DNA from: Kiloniella laminariae
GTDB lineage: Bacteria; Pseudomonadota; Alphaproteobacteria; Kiloniellales; Kiloniellaceae
Direction of reading: 5' to 3'
Length of the DNA: 64,000 nt
NCBI RefSeq assembly: GCF_027214005.1
Contig: NZ_JAPWGY010000001.1
Location: 682,001-746,000, forward strand
Positions within the stretch are counted from its first letter, which is position 1. Each line of letters opens with the position of its first letter. Made by a program: the position numbers and the translations under genes. Shown one piece after another: positions 12,331 through 45,127 of the stretch. The notes below the pieces were generated by a model. The model was not told the origin of the DNA and did no database searches. It saw nothing but the letters and a program-made list of their open reading frames with translations.

Positions 12331-12335
12331 AGCCG

Positions 12336-12971: not shown

Positions 12972-13138
12972 TGTTCTTCCTTGATCAACAGTCGGTACCA
13001 GCGGGGGGATATATTGCAAACATTCTTCTGATCCCTGTACCCACCGGGATTTTGGCTCTATAGTCCTGCCGTTCTGATCTGGATGTTTCTAGTTTTTTCT
13101 GGCTTTGCACCCTTTCCCCTTCCTGTCACGAGTGATCC

Positions 13139-13807: not shown

Positions 13808-13851
13808 ACTGAGACGAGAGGAAGACATCTCTTTGGGGAGAGAAAGAGATC

Positions 13852-15681: not shown

Positions 15682-15723
15682 GGGGGGGCGCATTTCGTCA
15701 GCAATCCGGGGGGATTATTCTTC

Positions 15724-16314
15724 ATGAGCTATCTGTTCTATCTGCTGCTGCTGTTTTGTCCATGGAAGTTTGACCGCTATGTGTTTCAGTTACAGCGCGA
15801 AGACAAGCTGGATAATTCGGCAATGTTTCGACATTTTATTGCTTTTGTCGGAAAATTTACTGGCTTTGCTGCCGTTGTTTATTTGGGGTTGATGATGCTG
15901 GATGTAATATCAGCCCCCTGGAGAGAGCGAGAACTTTTTCGGGGCTGGGATCAACTTTGGGGCATTCCCGTTATTCTTCTGGCTTGCACCTTCGGCTTTT
16001 TCTCTCTGCGAAGTGTACTTCGACGCGCAGAGATCTATACCATGGGGCGGATCAGACCAGCGGTATTAACAGAAAAAGAATGGTGCAAGGAGAGCGAAGG
16101 CGGGGGATCTTTTAGCTTGACCTTCAGTTATCAGGTGGGGTTGCGTCATTACCAGTTGCATAAAAGTGAGGATCAAGTCTTGGGGGCTATGTTTCAAGTC
16201 GGCTACAACTTCAACATCATCCATTCCCGCAGCAACCCCGGCGTTGCCTTTCTATATAACCGTGATGATTTTGAACGCTATTGCATCCACAAAGACAAGG
16301 TCTTGCCGGAGTGA
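15724..16314 (+). CDS. family A two-helix membrane protein, copy 6
   Basis: 196-residue paralogue, downstream of the dehydrogenase gene by 42 bp. It starts SYLFYLLLLFCPWKFDRYVF and continues QLQREDKLDNSAM, with helices at about 37-60 and 75-94. The soluble half has SLTFSYQVGLRHYQLHKSED, QVGYNFNIIHSRSNPGVAFLYNRDDFERYC and ends in a KDKVLPE tail. A Sel1 protein gene begins 7 bp after its stop, so these two are probably one transcript. Function unknown. Confidence 0.8.
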   Translation: MSYLFYLLLLFCPWKFDRYVFQLQREDKLDNSAMFRHFIAFVGKFTGFAAVVYLGLMMLDVISAPWRERELFRGWDQLWGIPVILLACTFGFFSLRSVLRRAEIYTMGRIRPAVLTEKEWCKESEGGGSFSLTFSYQVGLRHYQLHKSEDQVLGAMFQVGYNFNIIHSRSNPGVAFLYNRDDFERYCIHKDKVLPE

Positions 16315-21168: not shown

Positions 21169-21185
21169 GTATCCATAATGGATAC
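21169..21185. promoter_or_regulatory. 17-bp operator matching the S24 repressor sites
   Basis: GTATCCATAATGGATAC is a perfect 8-bp inverted repeat about a central A. It differs by one base per arm from GTGTCCATAATGGACAC at 32249-32265. It sits between the divergent genes 20753-21094 and 21274-22143, 75 bp from the first and 88 bp from the second. Confidence 0.8.
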
Positions 21186-23282: not shown

Positions 23283-24542
23283 CTATTCAAAACGCAGCAC
23301 CCCGGCGCTCTGTTCCTGTCTGTGTCGTCTGCCGGAAACCCAAAGCTGCGCCAGCCAGCCGAACAGTGCGCCAATCGGCAGGATCAGCAACAGCCAGTAG
23401 TTCAGCGTGAAGAAGAAGCTCAAATATTTATCCAGCGCACTTTGCAGGATAATGCTGTAAAAGATGCGGGTTTCCGCTTCGAATTCCGGGACATAATTGA
23501 TCGTGAGTGTCAGGCTGTTGAGAGCGGGAAACGTCCCATAGAGCAAAGTGGCAACCAAGGTCGTCAGGATACCGCCGATAATGGCTGCTTGTGGTTGCTG
23601 ATAACGGTCCTGCAGGAATGGCGGCAGGACCAGAAGGGCTGCAATCATGCCGCAAAGGGGAATGATTGGAACGCTTGTTGGATTCATAAAATTAAAACCA
23701 AGAATCTGTAGCAGACACAAGCCAGCTAAAAACAGGACAAACAACAGTATCTGCAGGAGAGACATCAGCCGATGGTAGCTGTGGTGACCCTTGTCAGAGC
23801 TGTTTTTGCGAATGGCGGTAAACCAGAGCAGGCCTGCGACAGGGAGAAGGGTCAGTATAATCATAAAAGGATAGTCTCCGGTGTCAAAATCCTTGATCCG
23901 GTAGAGCTCAGACTGGTTGGTGAGAAAATATATCAGCGGGAGCAGGAATAACCCGGCAAAAGCCCCGCAAAGGCCACTTGTCAAGATCGTTTCGTTATAG
24001 ATATTGATCTTTGCAGGAATCGGTTGAGTGGCTGTTTCCTTGATCTTCCAGAGCGAAATGGTGTGTTTCAGACGGTAGATAAGGGCATAACAGGGCAAGA
24101 CCAACAGCCAGAAGAGCGTACCTGCAGCAAGCGAAATGCCAGTAAGAACCATAAGATACCAGAGAGCCAGATTTATCTCTGATTGAAAACTTGAGAAATC
24201 TTGGTCAGAACTTCTCATGCCGGGTAGCCAGAGAGAGGACTCAGCGATGGCGAAAGCCAGATAGGCAAGAAAGCCGAACAGGACGGCGGTTTTCAGACAA
24301 CCCAGCAGCAGATAGAAGGCCCTGAATTTTTCCTGCGCGAAATAGGCCGGCAGGATCAGAAATCCGGCGATCAGTCCGCCCGGCAATCCGGCCATAAAGT
24401 GCAGGGAAAAATAATAGCCATCGGGGCGCTGCATATAGTTGGCCTGATCCTCAATATAGCTGGTCAGGATAACCGGCACGACGCAAAGCAACACGGTATA
24501 GGCCGCAACAATCAAACGTAGACGAAAGGTTGGGGTTGTCAC
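23283..24542 (-). CDS. family B modular membrane protein, two-module, gene 9 of array
   Basis: 419-residue polytopic membrane protein, last gene of the array. Two copies of the family module are visible: GGLIAGFLILPAYFAQEKFR (about 55-75), and CGMIAALLVLPPFLQDRYQQ near 305-325, the second followed by IIGGILTTLVATLLYG. It closes with the family's C-terminal motif LPIGALFGWLAQLWVSGRRH. About ten hydrophobic helices. Unknown function. The divergence from other copies is high, so recognition rests on module order rather than overall identity. Confidence 0.82.
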   Translation of the reverse strand: MTTPTFRLRLIVAAYTVLLCVVPVILTSYIEDQANYMQRPDGYYFSLHFMAGLPGGLIAGFLILPAYFAQEKFRAFYLLLGCLKTAVLFGFLAYLAFAIAESSLWLPGMRSSDQDFSSFQSEINLALWYLMVLTGISLAAGTLFWLLVLPCYALIYRLKHTISLWKIKETATQPIPAKINIYNETILTSGLCGAFAGLFLLPLIYFLTNQSELYRIKDFDTGDYPFMIILTLLPVAGLLWFTAIRKNSSDKGHHSYHRLMSLLQILLFVLFLAGLCLLQILGFNFMNPTSVPIIPLCGMIAALLVLPPFLQDRYQQPQAAIIGGILTTLVATLLYGTFPALNSLTLTINYVPEFEAETRIFYSIILQSALDKYLSFFFTLNYWLLLILPIGALFGWLAQLWVSGRRHRQEQSAGVLRFE

Positions 24543-24683
24543 GGGGGGGCTCCGGCTGATCAGTTGTTTGAGATATCAAAAACAGAAAGCTGGAAAAAGT
24601 CGAGGGATTTTATCGCTTTGATTGCGCAGGGGCGCAGCAGAGGGCTGGGTCAGCGGGGGTGGTTATTGATTTCGCGGGCCTGA

Positions 24684-25202
24684 TCAGCTCCAGTATTGGC
24701 TGCGGGATCCGGTGCCGTAGACCAGCTTGTTGACCAGCCAGCCCAGAGGCGCGCCGAGGGGAGCAAAGAGCAGGGCGTAGAGAGCCGGGGGGACCAGATT
24801 TTCACCGAGGGTGGAGAGAAATGCCTCGTTCATGTAGCCGCTTTCGAAGTGGGGCAGCAGCACCAGCTGGATCAGCAGCAGCAGGAAGGCCGCCAGACCA
24901 CAGGTCAGCACCCCGCCCCAGATTGCCCGGCCGGGTTTATAGGCGCGGGCCGAGGTGTAGGCAGGGAATACCAGAAATCCGGCAATAAAGCTGCCGGGAA
25001 CAACCCAGAGATCATCCAGCGAGAAGACAGCGAAGAAGGCCGCAATATCCGGCTGGCTCTGTCCTGCTGTCTGGCCCGTAACAAAGGCATCGCGCACCGC
25101 AAGCGTCAGTAACGCGTGCAGGCCGCTGTAGAGCAGGTAGCCGATGATGACGCAGTAGAACGCCAGAACAAGTCGGAGAAGCAGGGTCGGTGTCGATTTC
25201 AT
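24684..25202 (-). CDS. family B membrane protein, one-module, gene 8 of array
   Basis: 172-residue protein with four predicted helices (about 10-35, 66-83, 92-112 and 135-162). Module core: VVPGSFIAGFLVFPAYTSAR, then KPGRAIWGGVLTCGLAAFLL, and the terminal APLGAPLGWLVNKLVYGTGS. This is the cleanest single-module member and defines the unit: helix 1, an extracytoplasmic loop, helix 2 with GFxxxPxF, a short basic loop, helix 3 with GGxxT, and helix 4 running into a basic tail. Function unknown. Confidence 0.82.
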   Translation of the reverse strand: MKSTPTLLLRLVLAFYCVIIGYLLYSGLHALLTLAVRDAFVTGQTAGQSQPDIAAFFAVFSLDDLWVVPGSFIAGFLVFPAYTSARAYKPGRAIWGGVLTCGLAAFLLLLIQLVLLPHFESGYMNEAFLSTLGENLVPPALYALLFAPLGAPLGWLVNKLVYGTGSRSQYWS

Positions 25203-25263
25203 TCTGCTACAGAAGCAAATTATCCCCGATAAGTCGAGAAGTCTTTAGGATAAAAGGTTTTTT

Positions 25264-26166
25264 TTATTCTGTTTTCGCCAGTTGGCTCCGGTGACGGCGA
25301 TAGCGATAATAAACAAAGGGCAGACACAGCAGTCCGACGACAGGGCCGAGCGGCAGGGCAAGTTGCAGGACAAAGGGGATCGAGTAAAAACTTTCCCAAC
25401 TCGGCAGGGTCTGTTTGATCCCGGCGTAAAACAGCGAATGCAGGGCCAGAGCCGTCGCAAACAACATGCCCGCAGCAAGCGTGCTCAGCAGCCCGCCAGC
25501 AAAAACCGCAAAGGGGCGAAAGTCATGCCGGGAATGAAAACGGGCAAGAATGCTGTAACCGGATAAAAAACAGCAGCAGGCAAAAAGCAGGAAATAACCG
25601 GGGCCGTCTGCAAACAGGGGGAAAAACAGCAGGGCGAGAACGGCGGCAAAAAGCCCGCAAGCGGTTTTGTCTTTACCGGCTGTCGTGATCAGAGCCTGGC
25701 TTTCCGGCAGGTGACGGCGCATAAACAGATAAAACAATCCTGCGGCCAGAGACCCCGGAATAGCCCAGGCAAGCACCAGGGAAAGACTGTAGATCGGCAG
25801 GGCAACAAGCCTGAACTGTTCGAAGTCTTCGGGGGATCTCAGCAGACGATATCCGGCAAAGAGGTACAGCACGGCTGCTGTGATCATGCCACCGCCAAAC
25901 AGGGCTCGCGCCAGATTGTGCTGCGGGGTGTCAAGGAAACGGGGCAAGAGCCAGAACCCACAGAGGAAGAGGATGAGGAAGAGGGTGGGGATCAGGCCCG
26001 GGATCACGAGATGGTCTTGATCGAGCAAAGTATAAGGCACTTGCGGGTCTTTGCGGAAGATGCCGTAGACAAAACTTCCCCCCAGACGGTAAAGCAAAAA
26101 GCCGACCAGCGTGACATAGAGCGCTGAAAGCAGCGGCAGATACAGAGGGTGTCCCGGTTTTATCAT
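25264..26166 (-). CDS. family B membrane protein, two-module, gene 7 of array
   Basis: 300-residue polytopic membrane protein with two modules. Module 1: LILFLCGFWLLPRFLDTPQH, then NLARALFGGGMITAAVLYLF. Module 2: CCFLSGYSILARFHSRHDFR, then PFAVFAGGLLSTLAAGMLFA, and the terminal LPLGPVVGLLCLPFVYYRYR with a basic tail. About eight helices. Exact doubling of the single-module plan suggests internal duplication or fusion of adjacent genes. Function unknown. Confidence 0.82.
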   Translation of the reverse strand: MIKPGHPLYLPLLSALYVTLVGFLLYRLGGSFVYGIFRKDPQVPYTLLDQDHLVIPGLIPTLFLILFLCGFWLLPRFLDTPQHNLARALFGGGMITAAVLYLFAGYRLLRSPEDFEQFRLVALPIYSLSLVLAWAIPGSLAAGLFYLFMRRHLPESQALITTAGKDKTACGLFAAVLALLFFPLFADGPGYFLLFACCCFLSGYSILARFHSRHDFRPFAVFAGGLLSTLAAGMLFATALALHSLFYAGIKQTLPSWESFYSIPFVLQLALPLGPVVGLLCLPFVYYRYRRHRSQLAKTE

Positions 26167-26312
26167 GGTTTAATGGCTCCGATGTGGGGGCAAGTGATCC
26201 TGCCCTTGCAAAAGGGTTTTATCGGAAGGCGAAGTGTTTTTAGTCTCACCGTATTGTTTATGCATTGTTTTTGCGGGATTTATTTTTGGCGGCTGATCTT
26301 TTTGTCCTCTCC

Positions 26313-26834
26313 CTAGAGGTTGTCCCACATTTTCATGAAACTTCGTGGCAGTTGCAACAGTACTTGCAGGACAAGCCCGACAAAGGCCCCGAGGATCAGA
26401 AAGGGGATGAGTTCAAGTAACGAGACGAACAGAAGGGGGCCGATCATTTCCGTCATGTCGTGGCCTGTGTCCAGAGGTATATATTGATCCGGGACACTGT
26501 TGGAGTTGAACAGGGCAGGTCCAAACTGCAACCAGAGACGGGTAAAGCTGTTAAGCAGCGAGGCGCAGGCCGCGATCAGACCGCCGTAAAGAAAGGCCCG
26601 ACCCGGGCGAAAGTCCTCTTGCGCCTGGCTCCGGGGGAAAAAACAGCTCCCGGCGAGAAAAAATATCAGCAGGAACTGGACATCCTGCACAAGAAAACCA
26701 TCAAAAAGTTCTTTGCGCCCGAAACTGGACATGACGAGGGGGAAGCTGAAGTAGTAATCAGTCAGCCGAAACAGTGCGTAGGCGGGGAGGGTGAAAACAA
26801 GCCCGAGAACCAGGGGCCGGATCAGTCCGTACAT
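26313..26834 (-). CDS. family B membrane protein, one-module, gene 6 of array
   Basis: 173-residue four-helix protein. Module core: FLLIFFLAGSCFFPRSQAQE followed by DFRPGRAFLYGGLIAACASL, with a final hydrophobic segment ILGAFVGLVLQVLLQLPRSF in place of the more basic tails of other copies. Its start follows the stop of the upstream gene (26836) by one base, so translation is probably coupled. Function unknown. Confidence 0.8.
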   Translation of the reverse strand: MYGLIRPLVLGLVFTLPAYALFRLTDYYFSFPLVMSSFGRKELFDGFLVQDVQFLLIFFLAGSCFFPRSQAQEDFRPGRAFLYGGLIAACASLLNSFTRLWLQFGPALFNSNSVPDQYIPLDTGHDMTEMIGPLLFVSLLELIPFLILGAFVGLVLQVLLQLPRSFMKMWDNL

Positions 26835-26835
26835 A

Positions 26836-27315
26836 TCAGCTCCCTTGCCGTTTGCGCAGCAACAGCCAGTCGAGCAGAACGGCTGTCAGACCGCCAATCA
26901 GGGCGAGACCGCTGGACCCGATCAGGATGATGCCGAAAACCGTGCCGTGGGCCTCGGTGAAATCCTGACCAGAATGGAGCAGCGTGATCGACAGCAGCAG
27001 GATCACGATCCCGGCGGTACAGAAGGTGGTGAGCAGGCCACCGAGAAAAGCCCGCCCCGGTCGCCAGCGATCAAGCGAGAAAAACCGCGGCAGGACCAGC
27101 CACCCCGCCAGCCCGGCAGAAAGCGCCAGGGGCAGCGGTTCAAAAAATCCGGCAAAGGGCAGGCTGCTGGCCCCGGCAAGCAGGCCAGCGCAGATTGCGC
27201 AGGTGAGTTTCTCATTGGCAGAAAGCGCCCGCGGTGGCACCCCCCAATTGCCAATCGGCGGCAGGGGGGCAGGTTTTTCAAAGGTTTTGGGAGATCGGGA
27301 TGTCATGAGGATCAC
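26836..27315 (-). CDS. family B membrane protein, one-module, gene 5 of array
   Basis: 159-residue four-helix protein. Module core: LSAGLAGWLVLPRFFSLDRW, then RPGRAFLGGLLTTFCTAGIV, and terminal LALIGGLTAVLLDWLLLRKR. It is close to the second modules of the proteins at 28469 and 29889, sharing LPRFFS and GGLxAVLLDWLL. It overlaps the upstream gene by 4 bp (ATGA) and is followed by the next gene after one base. Function unknown. Confidence 0.84.
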   Translation of the reverse strand: MILMTSRSPKTFEKPAPLPPIGNWGVPPRALSANEKLTCAICAGLLAGASSLPFAGFFEPLPLALSAGLAGWLVLPRFFSLDRWRPGRAFLGGLLTTFCTAGIVILLLSITLLHSGQDFTEAHGTVFGIILIGSSGLALIGGLTAVLLDWLLLRKRQGS

Positions 27316-27851
27316 TCAAACACATTGCTGTCGACAGGCGCGTTCTCTTCCCGTTGGCGGCTCAGGCGACGGTTGAGATAGATCGCCACAGCCCCGATGA
27401 CGGGGGAGAAAAAAACAGAGATCACGAAAGAGGTATAGATAAACCAGAAGGCGAGGCCTTCTGCTTCCCATTTTCCGACCCAACTCACTTCTCCCGCTGC
27501 TGCTTCAAGGAAGACGACGATGAGAAGTCCATTGAGAAATGCTGCTGCGGGGCCAGCGGCGACGGTAATGAGAAACCCGCCGATAAAAGGGACGAAGACC
27601 CGGCTGTTATCACGAAAGAAAAAGAACGGTAACAGCAGATAGGCAAGCAGAAAACCGACGAGCATCAGGATGGGGATTATCACGTAATGGGAAACATAAG
27701 GTTCGGTTGGGGAACTGGTGTTGAGGACTAGTAACAGGAAGCTCAGAATAGAGAGTGCCGGAAAGACAATCCCGGCCATGACGAGGCCGCAGGTCATTCT
27801 CTCGCGCTGGGTCGGCGGGATGCGATCTGAGAGGGAGGAGTTACGGGTCAT
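27312..27851 (-). CDS. family B membrane protein, one-module, gene 4 of array
   Basis: 179-residue four-helix protein. The N-terminus MTRNSSLSDRIPPTQRERMT is shared with the next upstream gene (MTRKSSPTDRIPPERPET), showing recent kinship. Module core: MLVGFLLAYLLLPFFFFRDN, then FVPFIGGFLITVAAGPAAAF, and terminal FFSPVIGAVAIYLNRRLSRQ. It overlaps both neighbours by 4 bp (ATGA), a sign of coupled translation. Function unknown. Confidence 0.84.
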   Translation of the reverse strand: MTRNSSLSDRIPPTQRERMTCGLVMAGIVFPALSILSFLLLVLNTSSPTEPYVSHYVIIPILMLVGFLLAYLLLPFFFFRDNSRVFVPFIGGFLITVAAGPAAAFLNGLLIVVFLEAAAGEVSWVGKWEAEGLAFWFIYTSFVISVFFSPVIGAVAIYLNRRLSRQREENAPVDSNVFE

Positions 27852-28408
27852 TTGCGGTCTCTGCTATTGCGGCGGCGGGTCAGGACAAAGTTGAGCAGGA
27901 GAGAGAGGAAGGCGACGAGAGGGCTGGGAATAACCGCGATCCAGAAACCGACAATCATGGAAAAGATGAATGTTGCCTCGCCCATATACCCGGGGTCGCT
28001 GTCTTCATGGAAGATCAGGTAAGAGAGCAGCCCAGCCAGCACGCCTGTGGTCAGAGTGGTTATAAAGCCCCCGATTAGCGGGAGAAGGATGCGCCATTTA
28101 TGCCAGAAGAAAAAGGCGGGTAACAGGACTGATCCAATGACGAAGGCAACAAGCGGCCACACCAGCCACGGGGCGATGTCTTCGACCAACACTGAAAGTA
28201 TCTCGTTATAACCGGATGAACCGTAGATCTCCGAGCCGTATTGGTCGGCAATAAGCAGGACAAAAACCCCCGCCAAGATGAAGCCACAGATCGCCCGTTC
28301 ACACCAGGTTGGCTGGATGCGGGACCCCTTCGGACGCGGCATCTGTCCTGCAGATGTTTCGGGCCTTTCTGGCGGGATGCGATCTGTGGGGGAGGATTTA
28401 CGGGTCAT
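27848..28408 (-). CDS. family B membrane protein, one-module, gene 3 of array
   Basis: 186-residue four-helix protein with a longer soluble N-terminus (MTRKSSPTDRIPPERPETSA) than its sister at 27312. Module core: LVAFVIGSVLLPAFFFWHKW, then ILLPLIGGFITTLTTGVLAG, and terminal PSPLVAFLSLLLNFVLTRRR. It overlaps the downstream gene by 4 bp. Function unknown; part of the same transcript by all appearances. Confidence 0.84.
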   Translation of the reverse strand: MTRKSSPTDRIPPERPETSAGQMPRPKGSRIQPTWCERAICGFILAGVFVLLIADQYGSEIYGSSGYNEILSVLVEDIAPWLVWPLVAFVIGSVLLPAFFFWHKWRILLPLIGGFITTLTTGVLAGLLSYLIFHEDSDPGYMGEATFIFSMIVGFWIAVIPSPLVAFLSLLLNFVLTRRRNSRDRK

Positions 28409-28468
28409 GCTGTCTGCTGTCTCGTCTGGTTGTTTGGTCTGGTTATTATTTAAGCGGGCCGGGGGCCC

Positions 28469-29833
28469 TTATTCAAAGGCTGTGGTGTCGAAGACCGGGT
28501 TTTTCTGTCGGCGGCGGAAGAGCAGCCAGTCAAGCAGAACGGCTGCCAGACCGCCGATCAGGGAAAAGGGCAGGGAGATCACCATGCCGATGAGCGCCAT
28601 AGGGATGAGGAAAGCAAGGTCCTCCGGGGCAAATTTTTCGACCAGGGTGAAGAGCAAAAAAGCTGTTATTCCTGCAGAGGCAACGGTGGTCAGCGCGCCG
28701 CCAAAAAAGGCCCGAAAGTATTGCCAGCGGTTTCGCGAGAAAAATCGTGGAAGTATCAGGTACCCGGCGCTCATGCCCCCGACAATAAAGGGTAGGGACG
28801 GCAGGTCGCTTTTGATCAGCCATGCTGTAAACACGGCAATCGTTGCGGTGTAGACCCCGGCGAGCAGCTTTTCCCACAGGGCGATGCCTTGCAGATCCAG
28901 AGCCGGGCGGGAAAGAGGCGGGGGCGTCAGGAAGCTCAGGTCCTGACTTCCGGGGCCGGATACAAGATCAGATCCAGCAGAAGTGTTCTGTGTTTTCAGG
29001 CGTGCCTGTTGGGTATAGAGCAGGGCATGTGTCGCCCAGGCCGTTCCGGCGAGCAGCGGGACAAAGATATAAAACCAGCCGAACAACGTGAAAAAAGCCA
29101 GGCCCTGGATAATTTCACCAGCCAGGGATAGCTCTGCCAGTGTTCCCTGGCTGTAGTTCTGGGCAAAGGTGAGATAACCGCCGAGGACGAATTGGGCAAG
29201 AAGGATGGCAAGAGCCGCCCCGGTCATGGCAAGCAGAGGCCGATAGGGCGGGAAACCCTGCTGGTTTCGGGGCGCGTCGCTGTTCTTTTGAAAGGCCAAC
29301 AGGGCAAAGAGCCTCCCCGCAAGGTTGGCGGGGAAGGCCCCCGGTGCAACAAAAGCAGGCAGGAAACAGAAGCCGGCGAGAAAACCGATAAAGGGGATTT
29401 CGGCAAGTATAGGCAAGAGATAGTAGAACTCTGTCACACTGCCCATGGCGACAAGGGAGAGCCCGAACAGAACAATCAGCAAAAGACAGAACAGGCTGAC
29501 CAGCCAGCCAGGGGTCAGACCCTGCCCCCGGTAATGGCTGGGGGGCCGTGCCTCTTCCGCCTGCCCGCCAGTGGGAACCACAAAGTCATCAGCCGGAACC
29601 ACAAAAAAAAACCGCCGCAGCCAGCGCAGCAGAAAAAAGCCGCCTGCCAGTGCCACAAGAGCCAGCAGATAGATCAGCAGGGTGAAATCCAGCCCGGCCT
29701 GGGGACTCTGGAGCCAGGTGTGGAGGTGGACGAGGTTGAGGTCAATCAGCGCGGCGAGAAGAGCCAGAATCGCGCCGGAAATGCCAAGGACCAGACGCAG
29801 GGGGAGCGTTGGTTTTACTATCACAGAAGCCAT
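28469..29833 (-). CDS. family B membrane protein, two-module, gene 2 of array
   Basis: 454-residue polytopic membrane protein. Module 1: IPFIGFLAGFCFLPAFVAPG followed by a loop with AGRLFALLAF. Module 2: GGMSAGYLILPRFFSRNRWQ, then FRAFFGGALTTVASAGITAF, and terminal FSLIGGLAAVLLDWLLFRRR. A poorly conserved hydrophilic loop (about 85-105) and a Gln/Pro-rich loop near 290-310 lie outside the modules. Very similar in plan to gene 1 of the array at 29889, including the paired IPFIGFxAGFCFLPAFV motif. About eleven helices. Function unknown. Confidence 0.85.
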   Translation of the reverse strand: MASVIVKPTLPLRLVLGISGAILALLAALIDLNLVHLHTWLQSPQAGLDFTLLIYLLALVALAGGFFLLRWLRRFFFVVPADDFVVPTGGQAEEARPPSHYRGQGLTPGWLVSLFCLLLIVLFGLSLVAMGSVTEFYYLLPILAEIPFIGFLAGFCFLPAFVAPGAFPANLAGRLFALLAFQKNSDAPRNQQGFPPYRPLLAMTGAALAILLAQFVLGGYLTFAQNYSQGTLAELSLAGEIIQGLAFFTLFGWFYIFVPLLAGTAWATHALLYTQQARLKTQNTSAGSDLVSGPGSQDLSFLTPPPLSRPALDLQGIALWEKLLAGVYTATIAVFTAWLIKSDLPSLPFIVGGMSAGYLILPRFFSRNRWQYFRAFFGGALTTVASAGITAFLLFTLVEKFAPEDLAFLIPMALIGMVISLPFSLIGGLAAVLLDWLLFRRRQKNPVFDTTAFE

Positions 29834-29878
29834 GCTGGATCAGGTGCCTTTGTCATGCAAGGGGGCGTAGAGATAAGA

Positions 29879-29945
29879 GGAATTACAGCTATAAATCGTG
29901 GTTACTTTGCGGCGCTGGCGGGGCGGTTGTAAAGCGGATTTGTCT
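29879..29945. repeat. 67-bp direct repeat, copy 1 (3' end of family B gene 1)
   Basis: Matches 31191-31257 at 65 of 67 positions. It covers the last 19 codons, the stop, and ten bases beyond of the gene at 29889-31151. Confidence 0.95.
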
Positions 29946-31151
29946 GCGCCGGATATGATAGAGCAAGCCATCGAGCAGGAGGGCAGCAATACCACCAATC
30001 AAGGCAATTGGCAGGAAGAAGATCACTGCAAAGGCTGTCATATACATGACGACGAGAAAATCCCATGAAGCATGGATTGTTATGAGAAACCCGGCAATAA
30101 TGCCAGCCAGCAAGATCGTCATGGCGCCTGCGAAAAAGGCGCGAAAAAACTGCCAACGGTCACGAGAAAAAAATCGCGGGAGGATCAGATAACCTGCGAC
30201 AAGCCCTCCGATAAAGAAGGCAGGCTCTATGTGTCCGAATGGGAATGGAAACTGAAGCATTGTGATCACGGCAATCCCGCCGGAGAAGACGCTGGTAAGT
30301 AGTGTTTCCCAAAAGGGGACACTGTTAGCCTGCGGGCCCAGGGAGGGTCGTTTTTTTTGTTGGCGTACAAAGAGCAGGCAATGAATAGCCCAGGCAAATG
30401 GCCCGAGCAGCAGGGATAAAATACTGAGCCAGACAATACTTCGAGAGATTTCCCCGTGGAGAATATTCTCGCCGAAAAAGTTAAGCTCTCCCATCCTGCG
30501 GGCTTCGGCAATGCTGAAATAACCGACGTAGCACAGTTGGGTAAACAAGAGAGATCCCGGTACGCCTACCAGAACCAGAAGAGGCCGAAAGGAGGGAGAC
30601 GCATCAGTAATATCTGTGCGGATCTGTTTGTCTGTCTTGGTTGTCCCTCTGTACAATAGACGGCACAATCGCCCGCCAGGATTGTGGCGCCGGGCATTGG
30701 GCTGGACAAAAGCAGGGAGGAAGCAGAAGCCAGCGACAAAGCCAATAAAGGGGATACTGCTACGGCCAGGCAAAAGATAGTATGGCTCGAGCATATCTAT
30801 GCTTGCGAGGTAAGACAGGCCTGCGATGATGCTGAGCGTGATTCCCAGCGGGTAGAACAGATAGTAAAATCCCTTGGCAGGCGTCAGCCTGACCGGAACG
30901 GCTTTGCTCAAGGCGGAAAGGCAAGCGGTTGACTTGGACCAGTATAGTGGAAGCAAGCCAATGATCGGGCAGGCGAGAACGAGAAGATAAACCAAGAGAG
31001 CATGACTGTGCCCAGTTACACTGCCGGGCGGCCAGTGATCGGGGGGAGCCGTACTTAGTACGATCATCTGTGTAATCAACCCAAGAAATAATCCTGCGAG
31101 ACCGAGGGTAAAGCGGAGGTCGAAAGACGGTTTTACTGTCTGGAGAGGCAT
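29889..31151 (-). CDS. family B membrane protein, two-module, gene 1 of array
   Basis: 420-residue polytopic membrane protein, the first gene of the nine-gene run. Module 1: IPFIGFVAGFCFLPAFVQPN, then a loop with GGRLCRLLYRG. Module 2: GGLVAGYLILPRFFSRDRWQ, then FRAFFAGAMTILLAGIIAGF, and terminal LPIALIGGIAALLLDGLLYH with a basic tail and TTAPPAPQSNHDL at the end. The upstream region holds a copy of this gene's own last 19 codons (31191-31257), so an extra copy of the gene or its end once lay there. Function unknown. Confidence 0.85.
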   Translation of the reverse strand: MPLQTVKPSFDLRFTLGLAGLFLGLITQMIVLSTAPPDHWPPGSVTGHSHALLVYLLVLACPIIGLLPLYWSKSTACLSALSKAVPVRLTPAKGFYYLFYPLGITLSIIAGLSYLASIDMLEPYYLLPGRSSIPFIGFVAGFCFLPAFVQPNARRHNPGGRLCRLLYRGTTKTDKQIRTDITDASPSFRPLLVLVGVPGSLLFTQLCYVGYFSIAEARRMGELNFFGENILHGEISRSIVWLSILSLLLGPFAWAIHCLLFVRQQKKRPSLGPQANSVPFWETLLTSVFSGGIAVITMLQFPFPFGHIEPAFFIGGLVAGYLILPRFFSRDRWQFFRAFFAGAMTILLAGIIAGFLITIHASWDFLVVMYMTAFAVIFFLPIALIGGIAALLLDGLLYHIRRRQIRFTTAPPAPQSNHDL

Positions 31152-31294: not shown

Positions 31295-31327
31295 CCGGAA
31301 GGGGCGTGTCCCTTCCGGTTCTTTTTT
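31295..31327 (+). terminator. rho-independent terminator-like hairpin
   Basis: CCGGAAGGG (31295-31303) pairs with CCCTTCCGG (31310-31318) across a 6-nt loop and TTCTTTTTT follows. The T-run is on the plus strand, though both flanking genes are minus; the A-run on the other side could let it act for the repressor gene in part. The same stem recurs at 39754-39778. Confidence 0.7.
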
Positions 31328-31372: not shown

Positions 31373-32212
31373 CTACATTCTGCGGCCATACCAGATGACG
31401 CGGCCGATGATGTTGACCTCGTCGAAGGTGCGCTGGTATTCGGCGTGGTTGGCGTTGTCAGAGCTGATGCGCAGCAGGGGCGGGTCGGTGTTGGGGATGT
31501 GTTCGATGCGTTTGACCACCACGCCAAAACCGTCCCAGAGGGCAAAGATCCCCGGCGGGGTCGGGCGCTGGTCGTTGATGTCGATCATGACGCGATCACC
31601 GGAGACCAGGGTCGGGGTCATGGAATCGCCCTGGACCTCGATAATGCGGGCGGCGGTTGGCTGGACATGCAGTTCGGTGCGCAGGTATTCGCTGGGCAGG
31701 GACCAGTTGCCGCGGATGTCGTCGGCGATAGAGACATCGCCCTTGCCGTCGGGGTGGTAGGCGACCCCGGCCTCGCCGCCGCCGCCCATACCGCCGCGCA
31801 CGTCAATTTCGGCAACGCTGTCGCTGCCTTTGGGCGGGCGCTGGCGCGTGCCTGAACCAGAAGAACCTGATCCAGAAGAACCCGAGCCAGAGGGGTGTTT
31901 TCTGTTCGGGTCTGTTTTTCTTGATCCAGCAGAGCTCCGGCCAGTTTCTTCCTCGTGGCTGTCCAGCTCATCATCCAGCTGGTCTCCCCTTGAGTCTCGG
32001 GCGGGCAGGTGGCGGCTGGCGCGGCTGGTATCCATCAGCTCTTTCGGGTCACAGGCCAGGGCGATGGACAGGCGCACCATCCAGAGATCGGTGAGGCGGC
32101 GGTCGCCCTTTTCCAGTTTCATGACCTGGGCCTTGGTGGTTCCGGCCTTGTCGGCGACCTGTTGCAGGGTCAGGCCCTTGGCCAGTCTGAGTTCTTTGAT
32201 GCGGTTGTCCAT
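31373..32212 (-). CDS. phage-type repressor with HTH and S24 peptidase domain
   Basis: 279-residue CI/LexA-like repressor. Residues 1-60 form an XRE helix-turn-helix (ELRLAKGLTLQQVADKAGTT, then KAQVMKLEKGDRRL). A long linker includes SGSGSSGSGSSGSG (residues 108-121). Residues 185-279 are the S24 domain with catalytic Ser197 in VQGDSMTPTLVSGDRVMID and Lys234 in VVVKRI. An Ala-Gly at 148-149 (GEAGVAY) is a candidate self-cleavage site. It should repress its own and a divergent promoter via the three sites at 32249-32321, and be inactivated on RecA activation. Linker is unusually long for the family. Confidence 0.92.
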   Translation of the reverse strand: MDNRIKELRLAKGLTLQQVADKAGTTKAQVMKLEKGDRRLTDLWMVRLSIALACDPKELMDTSRASRHLPARDSRGDQLDDELDSHEEETGRSSAGSRKTDPNRKHPSGSGSSGSGSSGSGTRQRPPKGSDSVAEIDVRGGMGGGGEAGVAYHPDGKGDVSIADDIRGNWSLPSEYLRTELHVQPTAARIIEVQGDSMTPTLVSGDRVMIDINDQRPTPPGIFALWDGFGVVVKRIEHIPNTDPPLLRISSDNANHAEYQRTFDEVNIIGRVIWYGRRM

Positions 32213-32248: not shown

Positions 32249-32265
32249 GTGTCCATAATGGACAC
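32249..32265. promoter_or_regulatory. repressor operator 1
   Basis: GTGTCCATAATGGACAC, perfect 8-bp arms about a central A, 37 bp upstream of the repressor start. Best conserved of three sites in this divergent region. Confidence 0.85.
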
Positions 32266-32271: not shown

Positions 32272-32288
32272 GTTTACAAAATGGATAC
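32272..32288. promoter_or_regulatory. repressor operator 2 (imperfect)
   Basis: GTTTACAAAATGGATAC: right arm ATGGATAC matches the 21169 site exactly, left arm is degenerate. Centre is 23 bp from operator 1. Confidence 0.6.
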
Positions 32289-32304: not shown

Positions 32305-32321
32305 GTTTCCATTGTGGATAC
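32305..32321. promoter_or_regulatory. repressor operator 3 over a rightward promoter
   Basis: GTTTCCATTGTGGATAC, one mismatch per arm to the consensus. It lies just after TTGACT (32296-32301), a good -35 element for rightward transcription; bound repressor would block that promoter. The -10 element is not clear. Confidence 0.65.
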
Positions 32322-33741: not shown

Positions 33742-33780
33742 CGCGGTGAGATTTCGAGCTGAGATCTCGTGTTGAAATGT

Positions 33781-33798
33781 GCAAGGCCATGGCCTTGC
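33781..33798 (+). terminator. terminator-like palindrome
   Basis: GCAAGGCCATGGCCTTGC is a perfect 18-bp palindrome (7-bp stem, CATG loop) followed by GCTTTATT. It lies between the convergent genes ending at 33741 and 33843 and may stop transcription of the early phage-like operon before it enters the oppositely oriented block. Confidence 0.55.
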
Positions 33799-33842
33799 GC
33801 TTTATTCGTCCTGTTCCTGCGACGGCCACTATTCCCGGTGGT

Positions 33843-34370
33843 CTACGACAGCGGACTGTTCAGGACCTGAAGGTTGAAAAGTCGATAGGCATGATAAAAC
33901 AGCAGGATAAAAGCCGTGATCAGGCAGAAGACCGAAAAGACCCGGATCTTGCGCGACAGGCTGGGGGTGCCAGGTTTGCTTTTGATGCCGCTTTCATGGC
34001 GGGTCTGACGGCGGATCACCACCCAGACGGCGGACAGAAAACTCAGCAGCAACAGGGTGATGGCGGCAAAAACCGGCCCGGAGTGGATAAAGGGCAGCGC
34101 GTTGAGGCTGACCCCGATGCCGACGGTGAAAACCAGCAGGCGCATGGCCTCGGAGGGCGGGATATCGCGCAGACTGTGGCCCGATACCGGGCCGCTGCTT
34201 TTGGACGTCGGGACTGTGGAGGTCGGGCCGTTGGCGGAAAGGGGTGTCGGCGCCATGTGGTCCCGGTGAGACGGGGCTCTCTGGCTGTCTCTCTGGCTGT
34301 CTCTCTGGCTGTCTCTGGGGTTTTCTTTGTGGCTCTGTTCCCTGTTGCTCTGCTCTTTGTTCTGAACCAT
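33843..34370 (-). CDS. membrane protein with DSQR tandem repeat, unknown
   Basis: 175-residue protein; start at 34370 has GGAG nine bases upstream, while the frame opens at 34448. The soluble N-terminus contains RDSQRDSQRDSQRAPSHRDH, coded by a 12-bp tandem repeat near 34278-34320. Two or three hydrophobic helices follow (LLVFTVGIGVSLNALPFI, VFAAITLLLLSFLSAVWVV, VFSVFCLITAFILLFYHAY). No family recognised. It is the last gene of the minus-strand cargo block in the phage-like region. Confidence 0.7.
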   Translation of the reverse strand: MVQNKEQSNREQSHKENPRDSQRDSQRDSQRAPSHRDHMAPTPLSANGPTSTVPTSKSSGPVSGHSLRDIPPSEAMRLLVFTVGIGVSLNALPFIHSGPVFAAITLLLLSFLSAVWVVIRRQTRHESGIKSKPGTPSLSRKIRVFSVFCLITAFILLFYHAYRLFNLQVLNSPLS

Positions 34371-34509
34371 CACAAGGTACTCCTGCCGGGAAAAAAGACC
34401 GCTCTGATTCCCACTATCTTCCTGCCCCGAAGCCTTGTCAATCGGCATCGGTGGGAGAGCATTTATACAAAATTGAACAGCAGAGAATTTTTGTATAACC
34501 CGGAATCTT

Positions 34510-34889
34510 CCTCAACTTTTCTTTCCGATCGTGCCAGAGGAAAAAACAATGACCAGCCAGATCAGATCGCCGAGGTACCACAGTGCCATGAACCCTGCGA
34601 GGAAGATTGCCCAGTGCAGGGAGCTGAAATTGACAGTCAGAAACGCCCCGACAACCAAGAGCCAGAAAATAACAAAGCAGGCGCCACTGATATATCGGCC
34701 CAGATAAAACCGGTGCGCCCCAAACACGCCGAGAAAAAACCACAGGATAAAGGCAAGACCCATGGTTTTGCCGGCGTTTTTATCAGCCAGTTGTTGTGCA
34801 GGGAAATCCGGGGAGGTCTGGCTCATGATGTACTTGCCTTGAAGATTGAGAGAGCGGGGGTGTCACCAGTCACAGGGATAGATTTCCTT
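34510..34889. repeat. 380-bp direct repeat, copy 1 (TM2 gene plus 3' end of the gene before it)
   Basis: Nearly identical to 36052-36430 through the TM2 gene and the intergenic stretch, fading into the last codons of the upstream immunity-like gene. Shows duplication of an immunity-TM2 gene pair. Confidence 0.93.
34512..34826 (-). CDS. TM2 domain membrane protein, copy 1
   Basis: 104-residue protein with the TM2 domain: GLAFILWFFLGVFGAHRFYL followed by GRYISGACFVIFWLLVVGAF, giving two or three helices, and a further helix (IFLAGFMALWYLGDLIWLVI). TM2 proteins are small inner-membrane proteins of mostly unknown function, often next to secreted effectors or immunity genes. Only three of 104 residues differ from the copy at 36054 (S2N, an N/S and an I/A change). 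It follows an immunity-like gene by 36 bp. Confidence 0.9.
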   Translation of the reverse strand: MSQTSPDFPAQQLADKNAGKTMGLAFILWFFLGVFGAHRFYLGRYISGACFVIFWLLVVGAFLTVNFSSLHWAIFLAGFMALWYLGDLIWLVIVFSSGTIGKKS

Positions 34890-35210
34890 CAACAGCGCGC
34901 CGACGATATCCATGGCGGGGGCATTGTTGTCTTTGGGGGTTCGGGCGAGGTGGCTGTTGAGCTTTTCCTCCAGCCCGATTGGATAACTGCCATAGCTGCA
35001 GACCTCGCCGTCCTGTTCTTTTTGATCCCGGATGGCGAGAATGTACCCGGCGCAATAGCTGCGCAACAAGGTGCTCAGGTCTTTGCCAGGGGTGTCATGA
35101 CAATATTGATTAAGTACCCTGGCGCTCAGCGGTTTGGCCTCGGCCATGGGGCTGAGCAGAGTAAGGGCAACCGTGACAATCACAGAAGAAAGGAAAGGCA
35201 GTTTGCGCAT
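34863..35210 (-). CDS. Rap1a/Tai-immunity-like secreted protein 1
   Basis: 115-residue periplasmic protein. Signal peptide SSVIVTVALTLLSPMAEA. The mature domain carries four Cys at 37, 53, 71 and 113 in the spacing shared by its three neighbours, with the motifs YCAGYILAIRDQ near 52-63 and EIYPCDW at the end. This matches the small all-alpha Rap1a/Tai immunity fold, which in type VI secretion binds and blocks peptidoglycan amidase effectors in the periplasm. No cognate effector gene lies beside it, so the immunity role is inferred from family resemblance. Confidence 0.75.
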   Translation of the reverse strand: MRKLPFLSSVIVTVALTLLSPMAEAKPLSARVLNQYCHDTPGKDLSTLLRSYCAGYILAIRDQKEQDGEVCSYGSYPIGLEEKLNSHLARTPKDNNAPAMDIVGALLKEIYPCDW

Positions 35211-35234
35211 TACGGGTTCCTTGTTATTGCTGGC

Positions 35235-35609
35235 TCAGGTGCAGGGATCAGCCTTGATCAGGACGCTTTTGACCACGGTAAAGGCCGGAAGTCCGGCTTC
35301 CTGTGGATGGGTCTTGAGATGGGTGGCGAGTTTCTGGTCCATGCCTTCGATGTTTTGCTCGCCGCTACAGATCGCGCCGCTGTGGGCCAACTGGTCGTGC
35401 AGGGCGAGGATATAGCCCATACAGATGACCGGGCCGAGGCTGTCGATTTCGGCGCTCAGGCTGGAGTTGTCAATTTTGTTGCGGCAAAAGCGGTTGAGTT
35501 CTCCGGCACTGGTAGCTGCACTGGCCATGACCTGTGGAGGCAAAAGTGTCAACAGCAAGATCAAAGCCGCCAATATAATAGGCAGGTGCCACTTCATCGT
35601 TCTTGTCAC
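35235..35609 (-). CDS. Rap1a/Tai-immunity-like secreted protein 2
   Basis: 124-residue paralogue with signal peptide IILAALILLLTLLPPQVMAS. Cys at 42, 63, 81 and 123 match the array pattern, around VICMGYILALHDQLAHSGAI and a final ADPCT. The mature domains of the four array members are diverged, sharing mainly the Cys and the GY motif, as expected for immunity proteins selected by different effectors. It begins at the base before the stop of the upstream gene. Confidence 0.75.
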   Translation of the reverse strand: MTRTMKWHLPIILAALILLLTLLPPQVMASAATSAGELNRFCRNKIDNSSLSAEIDSLGPVICMGYILALHDQLAHSGAICSGEQNIEGMDQKLATHLKTHPQEAGLPAFTVVKSVLIKADPCT

Positions 35610-35963
35610 TCAGTTGCAGGGATAGGCATTGGTCAAGGCCTGATAAGTGGCTTGGTCGGCATCAAGTTTACGGCTTTCCGGGTGGCTTTTGATATAGCCG
35701 ATAATGGCATCGCGTACCTCGCCAAGAGAGGCAGTGCGGTTGCCCTGGTTGTGGCAGGAGTGCCCGAGGCTGCCCAGGTGCCCGGCGGTGGCAACAACAT
35801 ATCCCAGGCAATAGGCACTTTTCTGGTCAAAAAACGCGTCACTCTTTTGCGCTGTACAGGCGTCGTACAGGTCATTGCCGTCATAGGGAGCGGCCTGTGC
35901 CGGGCCATTGGCAAGAACTGCGTTGAGGAGAAGGGCGGAAAAAGTCGGGGCAAAAAATTTCAT
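35610..35963 (-). CDS. Rap1a/Tai-immunity-like secreted protein 3
   Basis: 117-residue paralogue with signal peptide FSALLLNAVLANGPAQA. Cys at 36, 52, 70 and 116 follow the array pattern; motifs are YCLGYVVATAGHLGSLGHSC (51-70) and a C-terminal NAYPCN. It abuts the next gene with no gap, suggesting coupled expression. Function inferred from family resemblance only. Confidence 0.75.
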   Translation of the reverse strand: MKFFAPTFSALLLNAVLANGPAQAAPYDGNDLYDACTAQKSDAFFDQKSAYCLGYVVATAGHLGSLGHSCHNQGNRTASLGEVRDAIIGYIKSHPESRKLDADQATYQALTNAYPCN

Positions 35964-36051
35964 CAGAAAATACCTGTATATATGAGAGAAAGCGCGAAAG
36001 TGAGCCGGACAAAGCAGCTCTCTTGCGCGTGGGATAAGGGGGAGGGCTTTG

Positions 36052-36430
36052 CCTCAACTTTTCTTTCCGGCTGTGCCAGAGGAAAAAACAATGACCAGCC
36101 AGATCAGATCGCCAAGGTACCACAGTGCCATGAACCCGGCGAGGAAGATTGCCCAGTGCAGGGAGCTGAAACTGACGGTCAGAAACGCCCCGACAACCAA
36201 GAGCCAGAAAATAACAAAGCAGGCGCCACTGATATATCGGCCCAGATAAAACCGGTGCGCCCCAAACACGCCGAGAAAAAACCACAGGATAAAGGCAAGA
36301 CCCATGGTTTTACCGGCGTTTTTATCAGCCAGTTGTTGTGCAGGGAAATCCGGGGAGGTCTGGTTCATGATGTACTTTCCTTGAAGATAGAGAGAGCGGG
36401 GATGTTACCGATTACAAGGGTAAATTCCTT
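36052..36430. repeat. 379-bp direct repeat, copy 2
   Basis: Partner of 34510-34889; see that entry. The few differences include three amino acid changes within the TM2 gene. Confidence 0.93.
36054..36368 (-). CDS. TM2 domain membrane protein, copy 2
   Basis: 104-residue near-duplicate of the protein at 34512, starting MNQTSPDFPAQQLADKNAGK. The same GAHRFYLGR helix-loop-helix core is intact. It follows the immunity-like lipoprotein gene at 36405 by 36 bp, as copy 1 follows immunity gene 1, which shows that the duplicated unit was an immunity-TM2 pair and suggests the two proteins act together. Confidence 0.9.
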   Translation of the reverse strand: MNQTSPDFPAQQLADKNAGKTMGLAFILWFFLGVFGAHRFYLGRYISGACFVIFWLLVVGAFLTVSFSSLHWAIFLAGFMALWYLGDLIWLVIVFSSGTAGKKS

Positions 36431-36785
36431 TCAAAGCTTGAATGATAACCTCTCTTGCTGTGAGGCTATGGCTCTGCGGGTTTTTCCTGATAAAATTGAC
36501 AACTGTGTCATGGGTTTCACGGGCACTGGGGAATCCAGGATAACAGGTTGCTTTTTTCACGTCGGGTCGAAGCGAAACATAGGAAATGTACCAGGTGCAG
36601 ATGTCATGTTCGCGCCAGTTTTCCCGGCTGTCCATTGTGGTATAGGCGCAGCGCTCATAAAAACTGTGTCCATCATAGGCTTCATCCTCCGACAACTCAT
36701 AGGCCGTCTGGTAGGATTTTTGCGAAGGTTGGTGTGGACAACCTGCAAGGAACAAGGCAGCGCCCAAAACAAACAGATATTTCAA
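36405..36785 (-). CDS. Rap1a/Tai-immunity-like lipoprotein 4
   Basis: 126-residue lipoprotein. The TTG at 36785 is chosen because GGGGG lies nine bases before it and the product opens with a perfect lipoprotein signal (KYLFVLGAALFLAGC, lipid Cys16); the open frame extends to 36917 without such a start. Cys at 46, 63, 81 and 124 fit the four-Cys array pattern, with ICTWYISYVS and KGIYPCNR as motifs. Lipid anchoring sets it apart from the three soluble members and would hold it at the membrane. First gene of the cargo block. Confidence 0.73.
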   Translation of the reverse strand: MKYLFVLGAALFLAGCPHQPSQKSYQTAYELSEDEAYDGHSFYERCAYTTMDSRENWREHDICTWYISYVSLRPDVKKATCYPGFPSARETHDTVVNFIRKNPQSHSLTAREVIIQALKGIYPCNR

Positions 36786-36880
36786 AATGATAATTCCCCC
36801 ATAACGTGTGGGTTTACTGTGCCGTTCGTCCGGCAGGCTGTCAATGATCGCGGGCTGCAAAGCCGTTTCAGGAGGGCGGC

Positions 36881-38296
36881 ATGAGCAAGGTGTCTTCAGG
36901 TCACCCGGGCACAACAAAGCTGCCCTGGTTCAAGTTCTATCCGACGGACTGGCGGGCCGATGCGGGGCTCAAGCTCTGCTCGCTGGGCGCGCGCGGGCTG
37001 TGGATTGAAATGCTGGCGATCATGCACGAGGCCGGGGGCTATCTGGAAATCAATGGCAAGGCGGTGAACACGCGGGCGCTGGCGGCCCTGTCAGGCTGTC
37101 TGCCGGAAGAAATCACCGCGACGCTGGAGGAACTGGAACAGGCGGGGGTCTTCAGCCGCGACCGCCGGGGCCGGATCTATTCCCGCCGTATGTTACGCGA
37201 TCTGAAAAAAGCCGGACTGGCCAGAAGCAACGGTCGTAAAGGCGGCAATCCAGCGCTGCGCACGCCGTCCCCGGCGCAGGGGGCAAGTGATTGTGATGTC
37301 AGGGAAAACAACGGTTCGGTTAAGGGGCCAGATAGGCAAAGGGATAAGCAGCCGGATAAACCGGGAGATAAGGTCCCGGTTAAGGCCGGGCTTAAAACCC
37401 AGAAGCCAGAAGCCAGAGTCCAGAAAGATAAAACACCTCCTGCCGGAGGTATAAAAGAGGGGGGAGCTATAAAAAATCTGCAAGCGGCTTTGGCTGAACA
37501 GGTGGAGGCGGAGGCCCCGCTCTGGCGGGATGAAGATGCTGGTGATCTTCCGGGAGAGCAAAGCGCGGGGCGGATCTGGCCAGAGCTGGCAGAGATGACC
37601 GAACTGCTGCGCGACAGCCGCTCGCCGCCAGCTGGTTCAAAGGCCGGGGCGACAGCTACAGCAGAACCGGAAACGGAAACGAGACCAGAACCAGAAACCA
37701 GACCCGTAAGCAAACCTGTAACATCCGGCAAGGCCGGGCGCGGCAGTCGGCTGGATCAGGACTGGCAGCCAAGCGAAGACGATCAGAATTTTGCCCGGGA
37801 AAGGGGGATGGATGATGAGTTATGTGCCACCGAAGCACTCAGATTTCGCAATTACTGGACCAGCCTTGCCGGGCGACGCGCCTGCAAGCTTGACTGGCAC
37901 CGCACCTGGCAAAACTGGGTCCTGCGCGCGCTTGAGCCGGGAAGCCCCGGCGGCTCCAGAAACGCCGGAAGTTTCAGAAGTCACGGAAGTTTCAGAAGCT
38001 CCGGAAGCAGGTCTTTCCCGGTTTCAACCTCCCCTGGCAGCAGTCACCCCCACCGGGATCACTCCAACAGCAGTCGCTCCCACGGGGAGGAGCCCGGCTG
38101 GGGCGGCGCTGGTCAGGGCGGGGGAGCGGCTGGCGCAGGCTATCCGGGCCGGGGGGCGGGTGGCCGACAACGACCAGGCGGTTTTGACCTCGCTGAGGTC
38201 GCTGCTCGGCTGCTCGATCGGGCTGCGGCACAGGACGATCTTTCCGAAAGAGGGGGAGATGCTGGAACGGCTGGACAGCGTGACCCTGCCGCCTGA
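36881..38296 (+). CDS. DUF1376/YdaU-type phage replication protein
   Basis: 471-residue protein with GGAGGG before the ATG. Residues about 12-110 are a DUF1376-type winged-helix domain (PWFKFYPTDWRADAGLKLCS, then GARGLWIEMLAIMHEAGGYL). A long charged linker follows. Residues about 300-350 carry the closing replication-protein motif (DWQPSEDDQNFARERGMD, FRNYWTSLAGRRACKLDWHR, TWQNWVLRAL), which resembles the DnaT-like DNA-binding end of phage O-like proteins. The last 120 residues are Gly/Ser/Arg low complexity and lie out of frame over the next gene, so the natural end may be nearer 37950. Confidence 0.82.
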   Translation: MSKVSSGHPGTTKLPWFKFYPTDWRADAGLKLCSLGARGLWIEMLAIMHEAGGYLEINGKAVNTRALAALSGCLPEEITATLEELEQAGVFSRDRRGRIYSRRMLRDLKKAGLARSNGRKGGNPALRTPSPAQGASDCDVRENNGSVKGPDRQRDKQPDKPGDKVPVKAGLKTQKPEARVQKDKTPPAGGIKEGGAIKNLQAALAEQVEAEAPLWRDEDAGDLPGEQSAGRIWPELAEMTELLRDSRSPPAGSKAGATATAEPETETRPEPETRPVSKPVTSGKAGRGSRLDQDWQPSEDDQNFARERGMDDELCATEALRFRNYWTSLAGRRACKLDWHRTWQNWVLRALEPGSPGGSRNAGSFRSHGSFRSSGSRSFPVSTSPGSSHPHRDHSNSSRSHGEEPGWGGAGQGGGAAGAGYPGRGAGGRQRPGGFDLAEVAARLLDRAAAQDDLSERGGDAGTAGQRDPAA

Positions 38297-45078: not shown

Positions 45079-45127
45079 GGGGAGTGATCAAGGCAGATCC
45101 AAAACACAGACCTATGAGACGAAAGCG

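Follow-up and report, generated by a model that had tools for sequence, protein, structure and literature searches.

A family of modular four-helix membrane proteins encoded in tandem behind a CI-type phage repressor in Kiloniella

We analyzed a 64,000-nucleotide stretch of the Kiloniella laminariae genome (RefSeq assembly GCF_027214005.1, contig NZ_JAPWGY010000001.1, positions 682,001 to 746,000; hereafter the window, with coordinates counted from its first letter) and found that nine consecutive minus-strand genes at positions 23283-31151 encode modular membrane proteins built from a four-helix unit. This Kiloniella family occurs as a run of one to nine genes behind a phage CI-type repressor. 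The family has no name or recognized relative in the searched libraries, and the cultured species carry 1 to 9 copies at a fixed place. Tentatively, we read the array as an accessory operon that is expanding within a domesticated prophage immunity region, and its products may be membrane proteins for phage exclusion.

The nine open reading frames (ORFs) of 159 to 454 amino acids reported in the first-pass annotation, which had been made from the letters alone, were confirmed at their coordinates, and all of them encode membrane proteins according to hydropathy. They contain 13 modules, five genes having one module and four having two, as follows:

23283-24542, minus strand: g1, 419 amino acids, a module, two helices and a module, C-terminus RFE
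24684-25202, minus strand: g2, 172 amino acids, one module, orthologue in K. laminariae DSM 19542 79% identical (dN/dS 0.16)
25264-26166, minus strand: g3, 300 amino acids, two modules
26313-26834, minus strand: g4, 173 amino acids, a single, strongly diverged module
26836-27315, minus strand: g5, 159 amino acids, one module, modelled as four helices
27312-27851, minus strand: g6, 179 amino acids, one module, C-terminus VFE, GTGA overlap with g5
27848-28408, minus strand: g7, 186 amino acids, one module, ATGA overlap with g6
28469-29833, minus strand: g8, 454 amino acids, two helices, a diverged module and a module, C-terminus AFE
29889-31151, minus strand: g9, 420 amino acids, two helices, a diverged module and a module, the first gene of the array

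Four hydropathy peaks were seen in all five single-module genes and more in the multi-module genes, with an arrangement of 4+2+4 helices in g1 and of 2+4+4 helices in g8 and g9 (nine of the ten expected peaks were visible in the g8 profile). The N-terminal modules of both g8 and g9 are strongly diverged and are preceded by the extra helix pair. Several ATGA overlaps had been described among these genes; one was found (27848-27851), the only other overlap being a GTGA (27312-27315). A single base separates g5 from g4, and the remaining gaps are 55-146 bp long.

The proposal that the nine genes rebuild a single module plan was examined by scoring each module with a profile made from the modules of the other genes and comparing the score with those of 1000 sequences shuffled within ten-residue blocks, so that the hydropathy pattern was preserved. 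No training set included the diverged N-terminal modules of g8 and g9; the close paralogues g6 and g7 were kept in each other's set. All 13 modules scored above every one of the 1000 block shuffles (30-93 bits, compared with 19-34 bits for the best shuffle), including the weakest, namely the N-terminal module of g9 (30.2 versus 19.7 bits) and g4 (32.6 versus 19.1 bits), and the common plan was thereby upheld. The shuffled controls are no real membrane proteins; the best non-family ORF in the loci reached E = 0.036 against a first profile. The motifs first proposed for the module fit g5, g8 and g9 and are loose for the other genes: FFSRxRW appeared in 2 of the 13 modules, and GGx(A/T)AxLLD in 3. 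In an alignment of 30 modules, a conserved (R/K)L begins helix 1, GxxxLPxF ends helix 2, RAFxGGxL begins helix 3, SxxGG lies within helix 4, and the module exit is basic. Conservation falls on glycines and basic edges, and the membrane core has no conserved charged position.

In the same 30 modules, lysine and arginine together outnumbered aspartate and glutamate in loop 1 of 1 module, loop 3 of 3, the C-terminal part of 25, the N-terminus of 16 and loop 2 of 17. This distribution of charge suggests that both module termini are cytoplasmic (N-in/C-in), the N-terminus less surely. An AlphaFold2 model of g5 based on the module alignment (predicted local distance difference test score, pLDDT, 88.3; predicted template modelling score, pTM, 0.75) consisted of four helices at residues 33-54, 60-78, 86-115 and 122-158. 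Because the full-length model of g8 was poor (mean pLDDT 61.7), only its C-terminal module was considered.

The view that this family is undescribed was borne out. The nine genes all remained under every listed curated cut-off of Pfam and NCBIfam. The best NCBIfam row for g6 was NF038216 (ABZJ_00895 family; E = 0.0029, 17.5 bits, with a cut-off of 33 bits), which the other eight genes did not match. When 30 modules, of which the window supplied 11, were searched, no Pfam family matched more than two, and PHROGs and PADLOC gave scattered single weak rows only (best E = 0.013 and 0.0047, respectively). Phage holins (PHROG 126), which are likewise small membrane proteins, matched 2 of the 30 modules (best E = 0.044); unlike holins, the array lies behind a repressor and not in a late operon, and no lysis gene was recognized beside it by eye. 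A sequence search of the PDB gave no convincing relative, and the best viral-protein fold match to the model was not significant (E = 0.096). In the open-licence PubMed Central (PMC) literature, the family appeared neither in the 15 papers listed, out of 157, on Kiloniella genomes nor in the 3 on lineage-specific tandem membrane protein arrays.

The genomes of the genus included those of K. laminariae DSM 19542, K. spongiae, K. litopenaei, Kiloniella sp. EL199, K. majae and one metagenome-assembled genome (MAG). The family profile matched eight of the nine Kiloniella genomes, that of the window included, and the ninth is 77% complete. In 52 further genomes of the order, the profile search found no member at E = 0.001; at E = 0.01, one genome of the same taxonomic family (G021) gave a weak, unchecked match (E = 0.0014). 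Among 385 sampled genomes of the class, for each of which about nine candidates were scored so that weak relatives elsewhere could escape, three gave matches, two of them being Kiloniella. The third (G188, E = 5e-5) reads by eye as an MFS-type transporter and was taken as background, and unrelated membrane proteins can therefore reach E = 5e-5. A pattern scan of named genomes with g8 returned no relative, and no significant family member (best E = 0.023) was encoded in the retrieved portions of 12 IMG/VR contigs that carry related repressors. The family is found so far only in the genus Kiloniella. Diverged members also occur elsewhere in these genomes, three beside long proteins and four beside a methyltransferase-like gene. 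The three beside long proteins form a diverged subfamily, which in three species lies next to the gene of a protein of about 1370 amino acids (L059 4709-5203, L061 4369-4851 and L062 4464-4928), and this neighbor carries RTX repeats in the one case tested.

The array is set behind a phage switch. Both the adjoining repressor gene and a phage replication gene had been overlooked in the first-pass annotation. The features concerned are the following:

31373-32212, minus strand: phage CI-type repressor with helix-turn-helix and Peptidase_S24 domains, matching PHROG 4 (transcriptional repressor) at E = 1.7e-31
32249-32265, 32272-32288 and 32305-32321: three putative operator palindromes, consensus GTATCCATnnTGGATAC
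21169-21185: putative extra perfect operator site, between a gene of 113 amino acids and a solute-binding protein gene
31295-31318: hairpin between the repressor and the array, a possible terminator, identical in sequence in K. laminariae DSM 19542
36881-38296, plus strand: phage-type primosomal or replication initiation protein, divergent from the repressor and on its far side

The repressor adjoins the array directly upstream on the same strand, and about half of its length matches CI repressors from phages of Alphaproteobacteria. At E = 1e-10 it was detected in seven of the nine Kiloniella genomes (G005 and G006 being without it), and 8 of 49 other relatives gave partial, weaker matches. 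The first gene after the repressor was a family member on the same strand at all seven loci, with a gap of 65-236 bp from the repressor stop codon. A row of three palindromes was present upstream of the repressor at the same seven loci (the third site is degenerate in four), and because this row has been kept, the repressor switch is still under selection. Without mismatch, GTATCCATnnTGGATAC had three sites in the 4.38-Mb genome, two in the repressor row and the one at 21169; with one mismatch, 9 forward and 11 reverse sites were found, compared with 5 and 5 for the reversed control. The site at 21169 is about 11 kb from the repressor; in K. litopenaei and EL199, the gene right after the array is a relative, recognized by eye, of the 113-amino-acid gene beside this site. 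We do not claim the array itself as a direct target of the repressor, and no operator-like site above 9 bits was found inside it at any of the seven loci. K. litopenaei contains a second relative of the repressor (G004:C26:31527-31973; 55% identical over residues 131-279), perhaps of another prophage.

The replication initiation gene lies 4.7 kb from the repressor, and a gene at 38756 in the same block was present in eight of the nine Kiloniella genomes and in none of 49 other relatives. No phage structural gene was recognized by eye among the listed ORFs of the window, not all of which were scanned. These observations suggest that the locus is the immunity and replication remnant of a prophage kept by the genus. 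Between 19 and 42 kb of the window there was no Rfam match. The repressor and replication region also encodes two proteins of the Rap1a immunity family (PF18602) at 34863-35210 and 36405-36917, both on the minus strand (E = 7e-8 and 5e-10), and another was found at the MAG locus (L028 4807-5202, E = 3e-13). Antisense to both Rap1a genes runs an ORF of 1035 amino acids with an internal near-repeat (33777-36884, plus strand), which is probably no gene.

Similar arrays, for which a search in related genomes had been proposed, were found behind the repressor with 1 to 9 genes per locus: nine in the window, six in K. laminariae DSM 19542, four in EL199, three in K. litopenaei, two in K. majae, one in K. 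spongiae and at least three, up to the contig end, in the MAG, which has four more family members on another contig. One family gene of EL199 is split into two overlapping ORFs. K. laminariae DSM 19542 carries counterparts of g9, g8, g6, g5 and g2 in the same order as well as one three-module gene, the first module of which is diverged. Between its g5 and g2 counterparts, three unrelated genes have been inserted (L025 13460-14822); they are ArsR-like (by eye), AHSA1 (by Pfam) and GFA-like (by eye). A repeated stretch flanks the first array gene in both the window and K. laminariae DSM 19542, its copies in the window being:

29879-29945, minus strand: 67-bp repeat, copy 1, where g9 ends, with a 63-bp stretch that matches one of the copies in K. 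laminariae DSM 19542 at 100% identity
31191-31257, minus strand: 67-bp repeat, copy 2, 97% identical, upstream of g9, apparently the 3' remnant of a g9-like gene that has been lost

This stretch had no other strong match in the nine genomes of the genus and formed no stable fold (z = +0.9 and +1.2). Its copies are 92-100% identical between the two species, compared with 0.30-0.57 synonymous differences per site nearby. The two species are highly identical between the middle of the repressor gene and the repeat, and identity drops at g9, a pattern that may reflect the edge of an exchange there; it would also be explained by strong constraint. The array of the MAG contains a 3' remnant of a repressor gene. 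Short blocks of DNA with 79-93% identity join otherwise diverged array genes; for example, the first 38 bp of g6 and g7 are 92% identical, compared with only 31% for the proteins. In a tree of 44 modules, the deep branches of which are weak, the two modules of g1 were not paired together, nor were those of g3. The copy number of 1 to 9 across species, the scars and the genes with one, two or three modules strongly suggest that the array grows and shrinks by tandem duplication and fusion, in agreement with the expansion proposed in the first-pass annotation.

We computed the ratio of nonsynonymous to synonymous substitution rates (dN/dS) for orthologue pairs of the family. The values were 0.16-0.42 for five pairs between the window and K. 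laminariae DSM 19542 and 0.11-0.14 for four pairs among other species, compared with 0.16-0.37 for four neighboring genes used as controls; the paralogues g6 and g7 gave 0.53. The array genes are under purifying selection. ORFs antisense to the array are long, and coding on the minus strand is supported because the substitution patterns fit it. The split gene of EL199 and the remnant upstream of g9 are what would be expected of non-functional or drifting genes; however, with ratios of 0.11-0.42 across all nine orthologue pairs, next to those of the flanking-gene controls, we regard drift as scarcely credible.

Prophage genes at such a position are often lysogenic accessory genes, and the array may likewise be an accessory (lysogenic) operon that is expressed while the repressor is on. 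Its products would be inner-membrane proteins that interfere with incoming phages, by exclusion or by abortive infection through membrane disturbance; many diverged membrane proteins would be stacked without a RexA-like partner, and the divergence of the copies would reflect changing targets. We tentatively favor phage exclusion because of the position behind a selected phage switch and the precedent of RexAB-type systems. According to PMC12894663, the RexAB-type defence of Pseudomonas putida is found downstream of a CI-like repressor, two genes further in the same operon, and its membrane part has four predicted helices; PMC7542560 describes the membrane parts of lambda, Sbash, CarolAnn and Butters as four-pass. 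Like RexB and the RexAB-type systems (lambda, P. putida RexABpp; PMC12894663), the array thus offers a four-helix membrane protein behind a CI-type prophage repressor; in contrast to them, it has no RexA-like partner and consists of 1-9 tandem paralogues with fused modules. No RexB-named Pfam or PADLOC family was among the matches, a result reached without comparing the proteins directly with a RexB sequence. Exclusion is further favored by the position behind CI and the operator row, both kept at seven of seven loci, by the phage-type replication gene, by the four helices with their N-in/C-in charge and by signs of gene birth and death, namely the copy number of 1-9, the 67-bp scar and the repressor remnant of the MAG.

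Several results weigh against phage exclusion. The array lacks internal operator-like sites at all seven loci, and in two species it is preceded by the hairpin that possibly ends the repressor transcript. No RexA-like cytosolic partner was found in the array or seen at the other loci, and the gap behind the repressor in the window is too short for another gene. The Butters membrane protein was, according to PMC12894663, not required for defence. The diverged relatives beside RTX-repeat or methyltransferase-like genes indicate that the phage setting is not universal. PADLOC gave one weak match, to a 2TM effector, for 1 of 30 modules (E = 0.0047). Finally, g8 had no match in 50,697 phage and 72,556 plasmid records, and a pattern scan of IMG/VR viral contigs with three single queries (g8, g5 and one EL199 member) returned no relative. 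We consider it rather unlikely that, in a more specific form of this reading, the domesticated prophage immunity region serves the genus as a growth site for a private, combinatorial set of diverged one-, two- and three-module membrane exclusion effectors; recombination beside the repressor, for which the 67-bp repeat would be one of the substrates, would extend this set, and the effectors would act without a cytosolic sensor. If the copies exclude phages, a dead prophage would have been turned into an expandable defence array, and a partner-less Rex-type design would be added to those known; if they do not, the family is still a clean case of a module that has spread within one genus through fusion and tandem duplication.

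We further weighed the possibility that the modules are host envelope proteins without a phage role, an orphan family of small inner-membrane proteins with a scaffold, adaptor or stress role, which expanded beside a relic prophage by chance. In that case, the C-terminal tail, which is basic and then ends in F-D/E, would be the binding site for a cytoplasmic partner or a protease. Indeed, 17 of 42 family ORFs end in F-D/E, compared with 2 of 518 non-family ORFs with a length of 100 amino acids or more at the same loci (Fisher's test, P = 3e-19), where the 518 include spurious ORFs and the family sequences are related and so not independent. Relatives at other places, with no phage gene recognized by eye, and the lack of an operator inside the array also agree with an envelope role. 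However, a housekeeping part of the envelope would not usually vary between 1 and 9 copies, and the first position after CI is kept at all seven loci. We regard this explanation as possible but doubtful.

The first-pass annotation had suggested a transport, channel or envelope role; no such role was demonstrated. The membrane core has no conserved charge, and a likeness in fold to components of energy-coupling factor (ECF) transporters was not backed by sequence. The corresponding explanation is that the four-helix module is a shortened relative of the ECF S-components and binds small molecules. S-components differ much in sequence, and some are encoded apart from the energizing module. The four helices superposed on residues 57-207 of the S-component PanT in two models, and PanT (6zg3_C) was the top structural match for two paralogues modelled from different alignments, g5 (Foldseek E = 0.18; VIA Z 7.9 over 127 residues at 4.1 Å) and residues 317-446 of g8 (VIA Z 8.1 over 127 residues at 4.5 Å). 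Other S-components recurred in both lists of structural matches (the group includes HmpT, FolT and RibU), the CbiM and ECF_trnsprt models weakly matched 2 and 1 of 30 modules (E = 0.0055 and 0.025, respectively), and some family members have 2+4 helices. However, as the tool itself notes, helical bundles often give Z values under about 13, and the likeness is not significant. Moreover, no sequence relation to S-components was found in tests of limited power, and no ECF module lies beside the array. In profile comparisons (hhalign), one BioY-like and one CbiM-like Kiloniella protein, which were named by eye and entered as single sequences that limit the comparison, reached probabilities of 0.3% and 0.7%, compared with 99.6% for a family member. 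The sole CbiQ/EcfT-type gene found in the genome is on another contig (C6), beside a CbiM-like gene. It counts for little that PF12822 was over its cut-off in none of 58 genomes and in 4 of 14 controls, since the BioY-like protein was also under the cut-off. On this balance, a transport role is distinctly improbable, and we do not assign the family to the S-components.

Alternatively, the modules might protect the membrane against membrane-acting toxins or bacteriocins of rivals, the copies forming a store of immunities. The diverged paralogues of the array, the two Rap1a-type proteins nearby in the window and the one at the MAG locus are in keeping with such a role; however, no toxin gene was recognized by eye beside the array, and the array proteins match no known immunity family. 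We consider this explanation improbable.

Two other paralogous runs were observed in the window, both on the plus strand. At 10159-16314 there are about six paralogues of about 200-250 amino acids, which start near variants of FxLLFCSRxF, and the two that were tested had no Pfam match. At 41865-48395 there are four Sel1-repeat genes (one assigned by Pfam and the others by eye), three of which are adjacent.

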